NCBI RefSeq assembly: GCF_000303155.1
Contig: NC_018719.1
Span: 2,666,001 to 2,730,000, forward strand
Length of the DNA: 64,000 nt
Direction: 5' to 3'
DNA from: Candidatus Nitrososphaera gargensis Ga9.2
Lineage (GTDB): Archaea > Thermoproteota > Nitrososphaeria > Nitrososphaerales > Nitrososphaeraceae
The position numbers and the translations under genes are program-made. The first letter of the stretch is position 1; every line of letters begins with the position of its first letter. The notes beneath the pieces were generated by a model. It ran no database searches and was not told where the DNA came from. It worked only from the letters and a program-made list of their open reading frames with translations. Shown here one piece after another: positions 20,913 through 26,333 of the stretch.

Positions 20913-21863
20913 TTGGTAAAAGACATCCTGTCGCTCTTTACTGTGCCTGAGAGGACAAAGTCCGGCTACAGCTTTGCAGACACTCCTGTAAAGATTTCAT
21001 TCAAGGAATCAAATGTCGTCGTCTATGGCGTTCCGCTTGATATCACCACGAGCTTTGGCAAGGGGACGTCCAGAGGCCCGGAGGCAATAAGGCGGGCATC
21101 GGCGCGCCAGATCGAGACATTCGTGCTGGACGAAAAGGCGGACATTTACGACCTAGTCGGTATATTCGACCTTGGCGACCTAAAGCTGCCAAAGGCAAAA
21201 AAGATGAGGAGCATTGCCAAGGTTCTTGCATACCTTGATTCTAGCATCCCAAAGGTCGTCGCTTCGCTGCGCAATGACAACAAGATTCCAGTAATGCTGG
21301 GCGGCGAGCACACGCTGTCGTATTACCAGCTAAAGGCGCTGGCAAAGGAAGAGCCGGTGGTGATACACTTTGACGCGCACCGTGACATGAAGCCCGAGTA
21401 TGAGGGCTTGAAGATGTGCCACACCACGCCGTTCTACCATTTGATGGAATACATCCCCGGCGAGAACCTGATCCAGATAGGCATCCGGCAGGCAGACAGA
21501 CAAGAGGACGAAATAGCCGCCAAGAGCGGTGTCACCACCTTTGACGCGTGGCAGGTGCATGACGACATTGATGCTGTCGCGGATCATCTGCAAAGGGCGA
21601 CTGCGGGCAAAAAGATCTACATTTCATTTGATATCGACGCCTATGACCTGCCCTACGTGCCCTGCACCGGGACTCCGGAGCCATTTGGCCTCGACCCATT
21701 TCAGGTGCTGAAGCTGGTCAAGGCAATAAGCCCGTCGGCGCGCCTCATTGGGATAGACATGGTCGAGGTCGGCCTGAGAAACGGCGACTATAGGGAAGGC
21801 GCGCTTGCAACTCAAACATTGTACAGGATTTTGTCACGCCCCTATTGTAGGGCATATAGATAG
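20913..21863 (+). CDS. speB: Ureohydrolase, agmatinase-like
   Basis: Arginase/agmatinase-family binuclear Mn enzyme, 316 residues. All six metal ligands are present: H133 in GGEHT, D154, H156 and D158 in FDAHRD, and D240 and D242 in SFDIDAYD. Archaeal members usually hydrolyse agmatine to putrescine and urea; the loop YVPCTGTPEPFG differs slightly from the common A-P-G-T-G-T-P-E-P-G, so the exact guanidino substrate is uncertain. It starts at TTG 20913. A TATA-like ataatttatta about 30 nt upstream supports a leaderless transcript. Confidence 0.87.
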   Translation: MVKDILSLFTVPERTKSGYSFADTPVKISFKESNVVVYGVPLDITTSFGKGTSRGPEAIRRASARQIETFVLDEKADIYDLVGIFDLGDLKLPKAKKMRSIAKVLAYLDSSIPKVVASLRNDNKIPVMLGGEHTLSYYQLKALAKEEPVVIHFDAHRDMKPEYEGLKMCHTTPFYHLMEYIPGENLIQIGIRQADRQEDEIAAKSGVTTFDAWQVHDDIDAVADHLQRATAGKKIYISFDIDAYDLPYVPCTGTPEPFGLDPFQVLKLVKAISPSARLIGIDMVEVGLRNGDYREGALATQTLYRILSRPYCRAYR

Positions 21864-21953: not shown

Positions 21954-22371
21954 TCAATGCTTGTCGCAAGTAAAGTGGCTTTTGCAAGTATCCTATACTA
22001 CATTTTACCAAAACTCTGCACTAAACTAAGCGAAGATCAAAGGGAATGAGCACGGCAAGTAGTACACCAATTATCACAGGCATCAACTTCCGCATTTTTG
22101 CATTAACCTTTACTGCCTTTTCTTCCTGCTTGTGATCCACCAACCTCATCTGCATTACCATTGAGATGAGGTTATTCAAGAACAGGGCATAAACCACTAT
22201 CATAAGCTTGTCAATCAAAGTGAGGTATCCAATAGGTGGAAGCTGGTTTGCTGCAGTAAGATGTGCCGCAACTGCAGCAAGGAGTGTTGAAGCTGCCAAA
22301 CCTATCCGTGGTGGAAAATTCGTCGGGCTCATCCAAAATGCAAGCATTGCAATAGTAGTGATTATGATTAT

Positions 22372-23700
22372 CAGTACCTGGCAATTAGCCACCATCAATT
22401 ATAACTGACCTGCTGTTTTTGATCTGTACCGAGTACACCGCGCCGTATTTCTGCTCCAGTCCCAGCCGCAGAAAAAGCAGCATATGAAAGTACGTAAATT
22501 CTGCATCGTATCTTCTCCCGTACCTTCCGCGCGTCGCCTTGCTGAGGTACTGCCACTTGATGTACACCCACTCATTCTGTATAACAAGCGATGCCAGAAC
22601 ATAGAGGAAGCGCAGTGCTGGACTCCTGGATGACGTCCTGGCCCTGCTCTTTCCCATCGCCCTGTATGACGATTCTATGCCAAATCTCCTCCGGTACTCG
22701 TCAAACATCCGCCCTACCGGGATATTGACAAGGCCTGCGGCATAGTACATGTACTGGACGCCGCGTTTCTTCCTGTACCTTTTCTTCCGGTATTTGGCAA
22801 CGGCATACAGCCTGAATGTGCATTTCTCGCCGGTGGCAGAATCTGTCATTTCGCAGTCCGGTACGACGAAACTATCCCTTCTTTTCCGGGTCAGTCTGGA
22901 TAACGTGCCGCCTTTCCTGCCTCTTGGAAAAGCGGCTATGATGTACGGGATACGCATGGAATTGAGGTAGCTCATTACAGCTGCTGTAAAGAACCCCTTG
23001 TCAAGGAACAGGCATTTTATCACGATGCTCGCCTTCTGTACCTCTGCAAGCAGGTACCTGACTACTCCAACCAGTGCTTCCCCCTCCCGGATGTACCTGG
23101 TGGCCAAGGTGAACCTCCTTCCATGGAGCATCACGTAGGCGCTGGCGTACGTGAAAAAGTGGGTCGTGCCGCTCCTGGCCCTGCCGCGTCTGACATCCCC
23201 CTCATTCTCAGGCTCGCCGTGGTAGGGAACGTCTGTCATGTCGATGGCTATGTCGACAGCTCGATTGTGCAGGGTCTCCGCCACCCTTTTCTGCAGCAGC
23301 CTGTTGGCGGCCGACTGAATCCACGAAATGTCAATCTTGGACACGTGGTACTGGACATCCCTCCTGGACGGGGTGCTGGCCAGAGTACAGCAGGCTTGTG
23401 TTATGGATGTCCCACCGGTACAGGCATAGACCACAGAATTTGCTATATCGACTACTGAATACCGCCTTTTTCTGAAATCGGCTGGCCTGAAGACTGGCAG
23501 CAGTACGTTTACTGCATTACCAAGTACTCTCTCATGTGTCAAAAAATGTTTGTCGGTAGGTTCTTGGGTAAATGTACCGCACTGGATTGGCAGGGTTCTC
23601 ACAAACCATGCGTCTCTGGTGGCAGCTTTAGCTGTTGCCAGGGACGCCCTTCAACAATCGACTAAAAAGCTGCTCACAAACTCGTTATTGCCAAGTACTG
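22372..23700 (-). mobile_element. Complete IS element, IS4-superfamily (ISH3-like)
   Basis: A 1329-bp element with 14-bp terminal inverted repeats (cagtacctggcaat at the left; attgccaagtactg at the right; one mismatch) and a 5-bp direct duplication attat at 22367-22371 and 23701-23705. It encodes one transposase on the minus strand and interrupts the channel gene. The intact ends, duplication and open transposase suggest a young insertion. Confidence 0.93.
22385..23602 (-). CDS. DDE transposase of the IS4-superfamily (ISH3-like) element
   Basis: A 405-residue transposase. The catalytic pattern is visible: first Asp in AIDMTDVPYHG, second Asp in CLFLDKGFF, and the Glu in a Y-x2-R-x3-E-x6-K signature (YRRRFGIESSYRAMGK) typical of the IS4 superfamily. 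It starts at GTG 23602 and stops 13 nt from the element's end. The protein appears full length with no frameshift, so the element may still be mobile. Confidence 0.9.
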   Translation of the reverse strand: MRTLPIQCGTFTQEPTDKHFLTHERVLGNAVNVLLPVFRPADFRKRRYSVVDIANSVVYACTGGTSITQACCTLASTPSRRDVQYHVSKIDISWIQSAANRLLQKRVAETLHNRAVDIAIDMTDVPYHGEPENEGDVRRGRARSGTTHFFTYASAYVMLHGRRFTLATRYIREGEALVGVVRYLLAEVQKASIVIKCLFLDKGFFTAAVMSYLNSMRIPYIIAAFPRGRKGGTLSRLTRKRRDSFVVPDCEMTDSATGEKCTFRLYAVAKYRKKRYRKKRGVQYMYYAAGLVNIPVGRMFDEYRRRFGIESSYRAMGKSRARTSSRSPALRFLYVLASLVIQNEWVYIKWQYLSKATRGRYGRRYDAEFTYFHMLLFLRLGLEQKYGAVYSVQIKNSRSVIIDGG

Positions 23701-24407
23701 ATTATCGGAAATATGGTCTTTAGGAATGAGGACAGCGGTGCACGCTCTATAGTAAAGGTGAATATATATCTGGCATAAGAGCCATCCGGATAGTCATGAA
23801 TAATTACTTCTGACCTGCTTGTACCAAGTGTCCAACCAGGAACGTTGACCAAGCTATCAAATCCACTTGCCGCGGTATCTGGGACAAATGTCAAATTTTC
23901 AATCGTTTCAAAACCCTCTATCTCAACTGTCACTTCTTGTTTGTCAAATGGATAGTTGCGAAAATCCATATTCTTCAGAAATGTTCCTTTGACCCGAGCT
24001 TCGTAGTAGTTTGGCTCGATGCGGGAAGGCTCAATTCTTGCATTCAGAGCATTCATAAAGTCGACTTTGGGCGGGTTTTGAACAAAGTCGACCTCCTTAT
24101 CATCTGAGGCCAACCAGTAGTAAAAATCAAGATCGTAAGATCCAATTTGCATGTCGATTTTGCCTACGTTGATCAGGTATACTCCAATTGTGTATTGTTT
24201 GATCGTAGGTGCTGAACTAATAACATCATCATCACCTTGAGCAAACGATTGCGTAAATAGTCTGCCAAATGTAATGTCAGCGATACTGACTAGTAAGAGC
24301 AACATCATTAAAGATCGCATAAGGGATTGGTATTTCAGCAAATGTCCAAGTCTTATTTGATCTGCTATATTATTGTTAGAGAACAATTTAGCAGATAAAT
24401 TGCAACA

Positions 24408-26297
24408 TTAGACCATGATCTGGGGCCTTGTCGACAGGTGCGTCGGCAGGTTCAACGGAAGGTAGGGCTTGTCCTTTGTCTGCGCCTTTACTTCGTCTAC
24501 TAGCTCCTGCAAGGTCATTTCGCGCTGCTTGCCCTCGTTCCTGTCCCTGACAACAAGCTTGCCGGCGCTGATCTCCTTGTCGCCAATGACCACGGTGTAG
24601 CGTATCCACTCTGTCTCTGATTCGCGTATCTTTTTGCCCACCGTCTCGTCCCTGTCGTCAATGTCTGCCCTGATCTGGTTTGCAGAGAGCTCGGCAAGCA
24701 CCTTTTCACAGTATTCGGTGTGCTCCTTGCCAACCGGGATTACGCGGACCTGTGTGTGCGACAGCCAGAGTGGGAACGACGGGATGCCGCCAGCCTTGGA
24801 TACGTTGGCCGCCTTTTCAAGCAGCGCGTACATTACGCGCTCGACTGCGCCTGAAGGCGAATTGTGCAATATTATTGGGTTCTTTTTGCTGCCGTCCTCC
24901 TCGACGAACTCGATGTTATAGCGCTTGCCGTTCTCTACGTCTATCTGGTCGGTTGAAAGTGCGGACGCTTTTCCAAGGCCGTCGACATAGTTGAACTCCC
25001 ACTTGAGCGTGAAGTAAAAGAAGCGCTCCTTCCACATCTCTGCTATGACAGGCTTACCAAACCTGTCGATAAGCTCGGTGATGAACTCCTTGTTCTCGTT
25101 GTAGAAATCTTCGGTGAACCTGATTGCCATTTCCACGTCTTCAGTCGACAGCCCCAGCGCTTGAAGGACGCTTATTGAGAGCTCAAAGCGCTTGCGGAAC
25201 TCTTGCTTTGCCTGATCCAAGTCGCGGCAGAGAGCGTGGCAGTCCGGCATTGTGAAGGCGCGCAGCCTGCGCAGGCCTACCAGTTCGCCGCTCTTTTCGC
25301 GCCTGAACGAATAGCGTGTCAGCTCGTACAGTTTCACTGGCAGGTGCTTGTACGATATGTTAAAGTCCTTGGCCATAAGAAACTGGCCAAAGCAGGCCGC
25401 AAAGCGCAGGAACAGCTGCTTGCTGTCAGACGTGATGTTGTACTGCCTTGCAGGGAACCTGTTGAAATAGCTCTCCATCGAGGGGTGCTTTGTGTCGTAC
25501 ATTATGGGGGTCTCGACCTCGATCCCGCCGTACTCCATCACTCGCCTTGTTACGTACTGCTCTATAAGCGACTTCATGAGCCTGCCCTTTGGGTAGTAGC
25601 GCATGTTGCCTGCGTCTGACGCCGGCTCGTAATCTGCTATCGCTAATTTTTTCATCAGCCTGACGTGCGCTGGCTGTTCATCCACCGTCCTTTTCTTGGC
25701 CATCTCATAGTTTGCTAGTACCTGCAGGTTCTGGTCCTGCTTTTTGAACCTGTACTCGCTCATCGGCGTCATCGTTCCGCCCGGCTGCAGGATGAACCAG
25801 AACGACTGCAGCTTTTCTTCAGCCTTGAGGGCGGTCGACTCTTTTTCGCCATGCGAGTGGCCGACGTGCTCGTGATCTGCCTGCCTGCTTATCTCTTTGG
25901 CATTTTCTGCAAGCGGATGACCCTTGACCTTGATGTTGAACGACTTTGTCCATCCAAATGGCGCGCGGTATACCTGACCTATCGACGATCCTTTAGCAAA
26001 ACTTTCAACTGATTTTATGATGCCGGCTGCCACGCCTGGCGGCGCAAGGTCAGAGCTCAGGTGGGCGTAAGGGTAAACCAAGAGCCGGCCGCTCTTGACC
26101 GTATCAAGGTACTTTTTTATTTCGTCGACTGCCGCCTTGGCGATGCTTTCGTCGTCCCCATTCTCCACTGCGACAAAGGCCACCACCAGATCTTCGAGCC
26201 TTACCTTCGACTTGGATGTAATGTCTTCCGCGTCTCTGATCTCCTTTTCAATCGGCTCGTACTCGATAAAATCGGAATGGAGCTGCAGCAGTCGCAT
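24408..26297 (-). CDS. thrS: Threonyl-tRNA synthetase, archaeal type
   Basis: Class II synthetase charging tRNA-Thr. The N-terminus (MRLLQLHSDFIEYEP) opens the archaeal D-Tyr-deacylase-like editing domain (to about residue 140), not the bacterial TGS/N2 domains. The catalytic core follows, with motif 2-type RREKSGELVGLRRLRAFTMPDCH and motif 3 near LHNSPSGAVERVMYALLE, then the C-terminal anticodon-binding domain ending YLPLNLPTHLSTRPQIMV. The ATG at 26297 is preferred over a frame opening 21 bases earlier because a cttaaatta box lies about 35 nt upstream and the family begins here. About 629 residues, normal for the family. Confidence 0.95.
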   Translation of the reverse strand: MRLLQLHSDFIEYEPIEKEIRDAEDITSKSKVRLEDLVVAFVAVENGDDESIAKAAVDEIKKYLDTVKSGRLLVYPYAHLSSDLAPPGVAAGIIKSVESFAKGSSIGQVYRAPFGWTKSFNIKVKGHPLAENAKEISRQADHEHVGHSHGEKESTALKAEEKLQSFWFILQPGGTMTPMSEYRFKKQDQNLQVLANYEMAKKRTVDEQPAHVRLMKKLAIADYEPASDAGNMRYYPKGRLMKSLIEQYVTRRVMEYGGIEVETPIMYDTKHPSMESYFNRFPARQYNITSDSKQLFLRFAACFGQFLMAKDFNISYKHLPVKLYELTRYSFRREKSGELVGLRRLRAFTMPDCHALCRDLDQAKQEFRKRFELSISVLQALGLSTEDVEMAIRFTEDFYNENKEFITELIDRFGKPVIAEMWKERFFYFTLKWEFNYVDGLGKASALSTDQIDVENGKRYNIEFVEEDGSKKNPIILHNSPSGAVERVMYALLEKAANVSKAGGIPSFPLWLSHTQVRVIPVGKEHTEYCEKVLAELSANQIRADIDDRDETVGKKIRESETEWIRYTVVIGDKEISAGKLVVRDRNEGKQREMTLQELVDEVKAQTKDKPYLPLNLPTHLSTRPQIMV

Positions 26298-26333
26298 AAT
26301 ATATCCTATCCCAATCACGCAAGCATATCTAAT

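Follow-up and report, generated by a model that had tools for sequence, protein, structure and literature searches.

The interrupted locus

The window analysed here is a stretch of 64,000 nucleotides from Candidatus Nitrososphaera gargensis Ga9.2 (contig NC_018719.1, positions 2,666,001 to 2,730,000), and window positions are counted from its first letter. On its minus strand lies a pentameric ligand-gated ion channel (pLGIC) gene (24320-22021) that is found in two pieces of one frame with 1329 bp between them. The 5' part (23701-24320, minus strand), delimited by alignment with the intact orthologues L017 and L018, comprises the signal peptide, the whole extracellular domain and the first residues of the membrane helix M1. 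The 3' part (22021-22371, minus strand) holds the rest of M1, M2, M3, a short M3-M4 loop, M4 and the stop codon. This part alone matches the Pfam model Neur_chan_memb (5.6e-07, 30.5 bits for a cut-off of 28.1) and is 85-88% identical to the orthologues. The upstream neighbour on the same strand encodes a threonyl-tRNA synthetase (24408-26318; Pfam tRNA-Thr_ED, tRNA-synt_2b and HGTP_anticodon), while the downstream neighbour is a convergent gene of the arginase/agmatinase family on the plus strand (20913-21863; Pfam Arginase, 8.8e-60).

Removal in silico of the intervening element together with one copy of the flanking ATTAT led to a single continuous open frame without any further stop or frameshift. 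The insertion point corresponds to the start of M1, after FLKTIFPII. Counted from the ATG at 24320, the joined frame encodes 321 aa (966 bp including the stop). A sequence-only reading of this DNA had proposed that an uninterrupted channel is restored, which is the case, but its figure of 343 codons assumes the TTG at 24386, located 22 codons upstream. By comparison with the orthologues the ATG appears to be the better start, because it opens a signal-peptide-like segment and coincides with the position at which L017 has its own ATG and signal peptide. In the broken allele, the 5' frame continues for four codons into the element (STWQ) and reaches a stop at 23685.

The inserted element

The intervening DNA is a complete insertion sequence of the ISH3 family (22372-23700), with its transposase oriented like the channel gene on the minus strand. 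Its length of 1329 bp, as first read from the window, is found with the same ends in 14 identical copies across the genome. The transposase frame (22385-23602, minus strand) encodes 405 aa from a GTG within an open frame of 421 codons and has no internal stop. It aligns with the NCBIfam ISH3 model (NF033541) at 6.6e-66 over profile positions 3-298 of 298, with a score of 222.5 bits that just misses the curated cut-off of 225. The terminal inverted repeats, CAGTACCTGGCAAT at the low-coordinate end (22372-22385, plus strand) and CAGTACTTGGCAAT at the high-coordinate end (23687-23700, minus strand), do have the proposed length of 14 bp but are not perfect, 13 of the 14 positions being identical. 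The target-site duplication ATTAT is present as expected on both sides (22367-22371 and 23701-23705).

Elements of the ISH3 family are typically about 1.2-1.5 kb long, with inverted ends of about 15 bp and target duplications of 4-5 bp. The size of the present element, its ends and its 5-bp duplication, the latter seen at 14 of 14 copies, agree with these traits. Hence, the restored frame, the Pfam match of the channel, the NF033541 match and the 14 identical copies together bear out the earlier view of a pLGIC gene cut in M1 by a complete ISH3-like element.

Relationship to known ligand-gated channels

Homology of the joined protein to pLGICs is clear from sequence comparison, and it extends to both domains. 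The joined protein matches Pfam PF02932 (Neur_chan_memb, M1-M4) at 1.7e-07 with 32.2 bits, above the cut-off of 28.1. An alignment with GLIC and eukaryotic receptors had been suggested as a check, and phmmer matched the joined protein with GABA-A beta3 chains (1e-18) and with GLIC variants (about 1e-14); the alignment begins inside the extracellular domain, at residue 84-87, and extends through M3. Moreover, a profile built from seven archaeal sequences related to it matches GLIC across nearly the whole length (profile positions 31-307, 2e-26). The NCBIfam LIC model also matches by E-value, with a score under its curated cut-off. The Pfam model of the ligand-binding domain, PF02931, did not match the joined protein; in the genome search it gave no match either, nor any in its controls, and the joined protein was therefore used as query instead. 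The characteristic residues of the family are found as a Pro-loop YPFD at 123-126, the M1 proline P205 and the basic M2 0' residue R227, all of which are invariant in the alignment (A1) except D126.

Orthologues and distribution

Among 70 genomes of the family, pLGIC matches were found in three, all within the genus: N. gargensis and two congeners, a 2.95-Mb genome that is evidently N. evergladensis and a 2.53-Mb genome that is evidently N. viennensis. Each congener carries two intact pLGICs, of an A and a B type. The joined gargensis protein is 70-75% identical to the nearest A-type genes, and the intact orthologues align with it over the full length, residue for residue across the junction (FPIIIITTIAML versus FPVVIITTIAML). 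Phylogenetically, the broken gene groups as sister of the two A genes (support 90/80), apart from the pair formed by the B genes. The joined gene and the A genes differ by a nonsynonymous divergence (dN) of 0.23-0.25; synonymous sites are saturated, hence no dN/dS ratio is given. Together with the absence of any other stop or frameshift, this indicates that selection held the channel gene until recently, although a lack of stops dates the event only loosely: with about 35 stops expected per substitution per site, neutral divergence is bounded at roughly 9%.

The two congeners share the position of the B gene, which is found between peptidase-like and PhoU-like genes, while the place of the A gene differs. 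Neither congener (G026 and G042) has a pLGIC in the interval that separates thrS from the agmatinase-family gene. In G042, the N. viennensis-like genome, this interval measures about 970 bp and contains small unrelated ORFs (L060:5564-6276), one of which resembles, by eye, a RelE-type toxin. The interval between the agmatinase-family gene and thrS seems to be a tolerant insertion place. A search of the gargensis genome with the joined protein, one that the sequence-only reading had called for, returned a single pLGIC locus. No second gene or remnant could be recognised at the gargensis B place, where a UppP-like (undecaprenyl-diphosphatase-like) gene is found. Given that no second gene was found and that the B place is otherwise occupied, the genome holds one pLGIC locus and this locus is broken. 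The relatives that bear intact channel genes do not contain the element.

At the level of the phylum, 42 of 397 sampled genomes have a pLGIC match, and a thaumarchaeal pLGIC clade, with frequent loss inferred, has already been described (Jaiteh et al. 2016, PMC4795631). The rarity of these channels in archaea was therefore overstated at first, although they are indeed scarce in the family of N. gargensis. A scan of contigs with an alignment as query gave 22 archaeal and bacterial loci, the closest relatives not being among them; the named matches included Nitrosocaldus, many Bathyarchaeota, one Brockarchaeote and one Hadesarchaeote. The same scan with a single orthologue as query gave no match. 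Both domains are encoded on one frame in 28 intact relatives. Some pLGIC homologues of the phylum carry stops or are fragmented (G149:C12:445-1248, G272:C4:131428-132256, G418:C3:3-592 and L052, G339:C52:21915-22712), which could represent further independent losses or assembly errors.

A genome-wide burst of transposition

The gargensis genome (2,833,868 bp) contains 14 copies of the element that are 100% identical over positions 1-1329, an identity that, for repeats longer than the reads, can partly be imposed by assembly or gene conversion. As the 14 x 1329 positions contain no difference, the rule of three places divergence per lineage below about 0.00016 substitutions per site, provided that the copies were not homogenised by gene conversion or by consensus assembly. 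A perfect 5-bp direct repeat flanks all 14 copies. Read in the orientation of the element, the duplications are ATAAT (7), ATTAT (4), AATAT (1), ATATT (1) and ACAAT (1), ATAAT and ATTAT being complements. Fourteen perfect duplications out of 14 are beyond chance, and the boundaries of the element do not depend on the channel site alone.

In addition, the copy at 244641-245969 (L013) is located in a duplicated proviral region whose twin (263549-263848, L107) is an empty site with a single ATAAT. Apart from the element, all 2995 bases compared around the junction are identical in the two stretches. This reproduces a published difference, namely an ISH3 copy that is present in provirus NitGar-E1 and absent from its twin NitGar-E2 (Krupovic et al. 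2019, PMC6563490). The identity of the 14 copies and the exact empty site in the tandem provirus twin argue for a recent burst. A very recent event had been proposed from the intact transposase and the perfect duplication; it is upheld here by evidence that lies beyond the window.

Two older relatives of the element, with 75-80% identity and broken frames, are also present in the genome. The first (L015, G000:C1:62468-63836) is 80% identical and has kept near-identical ends with ATTAT on both sides. The second (L016, G000:C1:726125-727493) is 75% identical and displays, by eye, near-identical ends and a flanking ATTAT. The usual signature of the transposase is Y-2-R-3-E-6-K/R. At this motif the expanded copies (window 22385-23602) read YRRRFGIESSYRAMGKSR, with a glycine at the position of the basic residue, and L016 reads YRQRFGIESSYRTMKKSR. 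A search for related transposases gave no match in the remaining 69 family genomes and just two distant matches in 398 sampled genomes of the phylum. In the same way, ISH3 has been reported from a single thaumarchaeal species (Krupovic et al. 2019, PMC6563490).

When the flanks of the 14 copies were rejoined, long frames crossed the junction at eight sites: the channel, a patatin-like phospholipase, a Cdc6/Orc1-like ATPase, a MEDS-like protein whose score does not reach the Pfam cut-off, and four frames that match no Pfam model, two of which (186 and 167 codons) are less certain. The burst has thus broken about six to eight reading frames, channel included, which indicates that the channel was not specially targeted. 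As to the individual sites, the Cdc6/Orc1-like gene of replication-initiator type (L012, G000:C1:296457-297785) gives a rejoined frame of 354 codons with a Cdc6 lid domain, the patatin-like phospholipase gene (L007, G000:C1:865381-866709) one of 395 codons and the MEDS-like gene (L010, G000:C1:766939-768267) one of 285 codons.

Fate of the interrupted gene

A functional Nitrososphaera A-type pLGIC gene was very probably inactivated by simple ISH3 transposition during a recent burst in this lineage. The transposase would have inserted the element at the AT-rich 5-bp target ATTAT, within the first turns of M1, and filling-in of the staggered ends would have generated the duplication. The most that the broken allele is predicted to produce is a secreted extracellular domain ending in a few foreign residues (STWQ). 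The transmembrane part would have no proper start of its own and no channel should be assembled. The most likely consequence is loss of channel function, and we infer a natural knockout allele. The channel was presumably dispensable under the conditions of the sequenced population.

There is a slight chance that the gene has been split rather than killed, the interrupted allele remaining useful either as the source of a soluble extracellular domain that is secreted or through a four-helix part translated on its own. Such a split would fit with a 5' piece that keeps the signal peptide and the whole extracellular domain and stops four codons past the junction, and with a 3' piece that is in frame with a TTG at 22398, overlapping the end of the transposase and giving VLIIIITTIAML at M1. 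Re-initiation at this TTG is nevertheless speculative, the insertion is one of many with AT-rich targets and too recent for selection to show, and the 28 intact relatives have both domains on one frame. In a narrower form, with an even slimmer chance, a single transposition step would have converted the channel gene into one whose product is a secreted and soluble ligand-binding domain, the pore part being made separately or not at all. If true, this domain would be a natural archaeal counterpart of the acetylcholine-binding proteins, such as the snail protein.

A similarly slim chance is given to a reversible switch or a mixed population, in which some cells are intact and excision of the element restores the channel. 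The recency of the event, the intact transposase and the perfect duplication would suit it, as would the origin of the sequenced material from an enrichment culture. Against it, cut-and-paste excision by DDE transposases usually leaves a scar, exact restoration of the site being infrequent, and no uninterrupted allele of this species was present in the sequences examined, insertion status being read from one assembly. No strong support was found for either the soluble domain or the switch. Finally, fourteen identical 1.3-kb copies are hard for short reads and might have caused the element to be misplaced into an intact gene. This is the most improbable explanation, as a misjoin would not leave the same codons perfectly duplicated over 5 bp on either side, and such a duplication is seen at all 14 sites. 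Inactivation by transposition therefore remains the preferred reading; the two findings that would have spoken against it at the outset, a joined protein unrelated to pLGICs or the same interruption in all relatives, were not encountered, since the homology is established and the relatives are intact and element-free.

Significance and comparison with known systems

No report of this channel disruption was found in the largely open-access literature searched. The protein clade (Jaiteh 2016), the element family in N. gargensis (Krupovic 2019) and the burst in this species are already known, and as mobile-element biology the insertion is ordinary. According to Jaiteh et al. (2016, PMC4795631), none of the pLGICs from unicellular organisms has a known biological role. 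N. gargensis has probably been left without a pLGIC channel. A recent clean knock-out of the sole pLGIC in a cultivated ammonia-oxidising archaeon offers a natural comparison with two congeners that have two intact copies each. This comparison helps to ask what the channel does, and the case is a further example in a pattern of repeated channel loss.

GLIC from Gloeobacter and the beta subunits of GABA-A receptors belong to the same family and are only distant kin of the gargensis protein. The latter lacks an acidic residue immediately before the conserved M2 arginine (NFPPRIG). According to Jaiteh et al. (2016, PMC4795631), ion selectivity in prokaryotes cannot be read from this position, hence none is assigned here from M2. 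Closer counterparts are found in the thaumarchaeal pLGIC (Pro-loop receptor) clade, for instance the N. viennensis gene, with which the gargensis protein shares family, length and an architecture without Cys-loop cysteines. In contrast to this clade, the sole gargensis copy is interrupted by an insertion sequence and sited between thrS and an agmatinase-family gene. With regard to the inserted DNA, the ISH3 of Ca. N. gargensis described by Krupovic et al. (2019, PMC6563490) is of the same family and most likely the same element; the main text of that paper mentions no channel gene, and it is the insertion into the channel gene that is described here.
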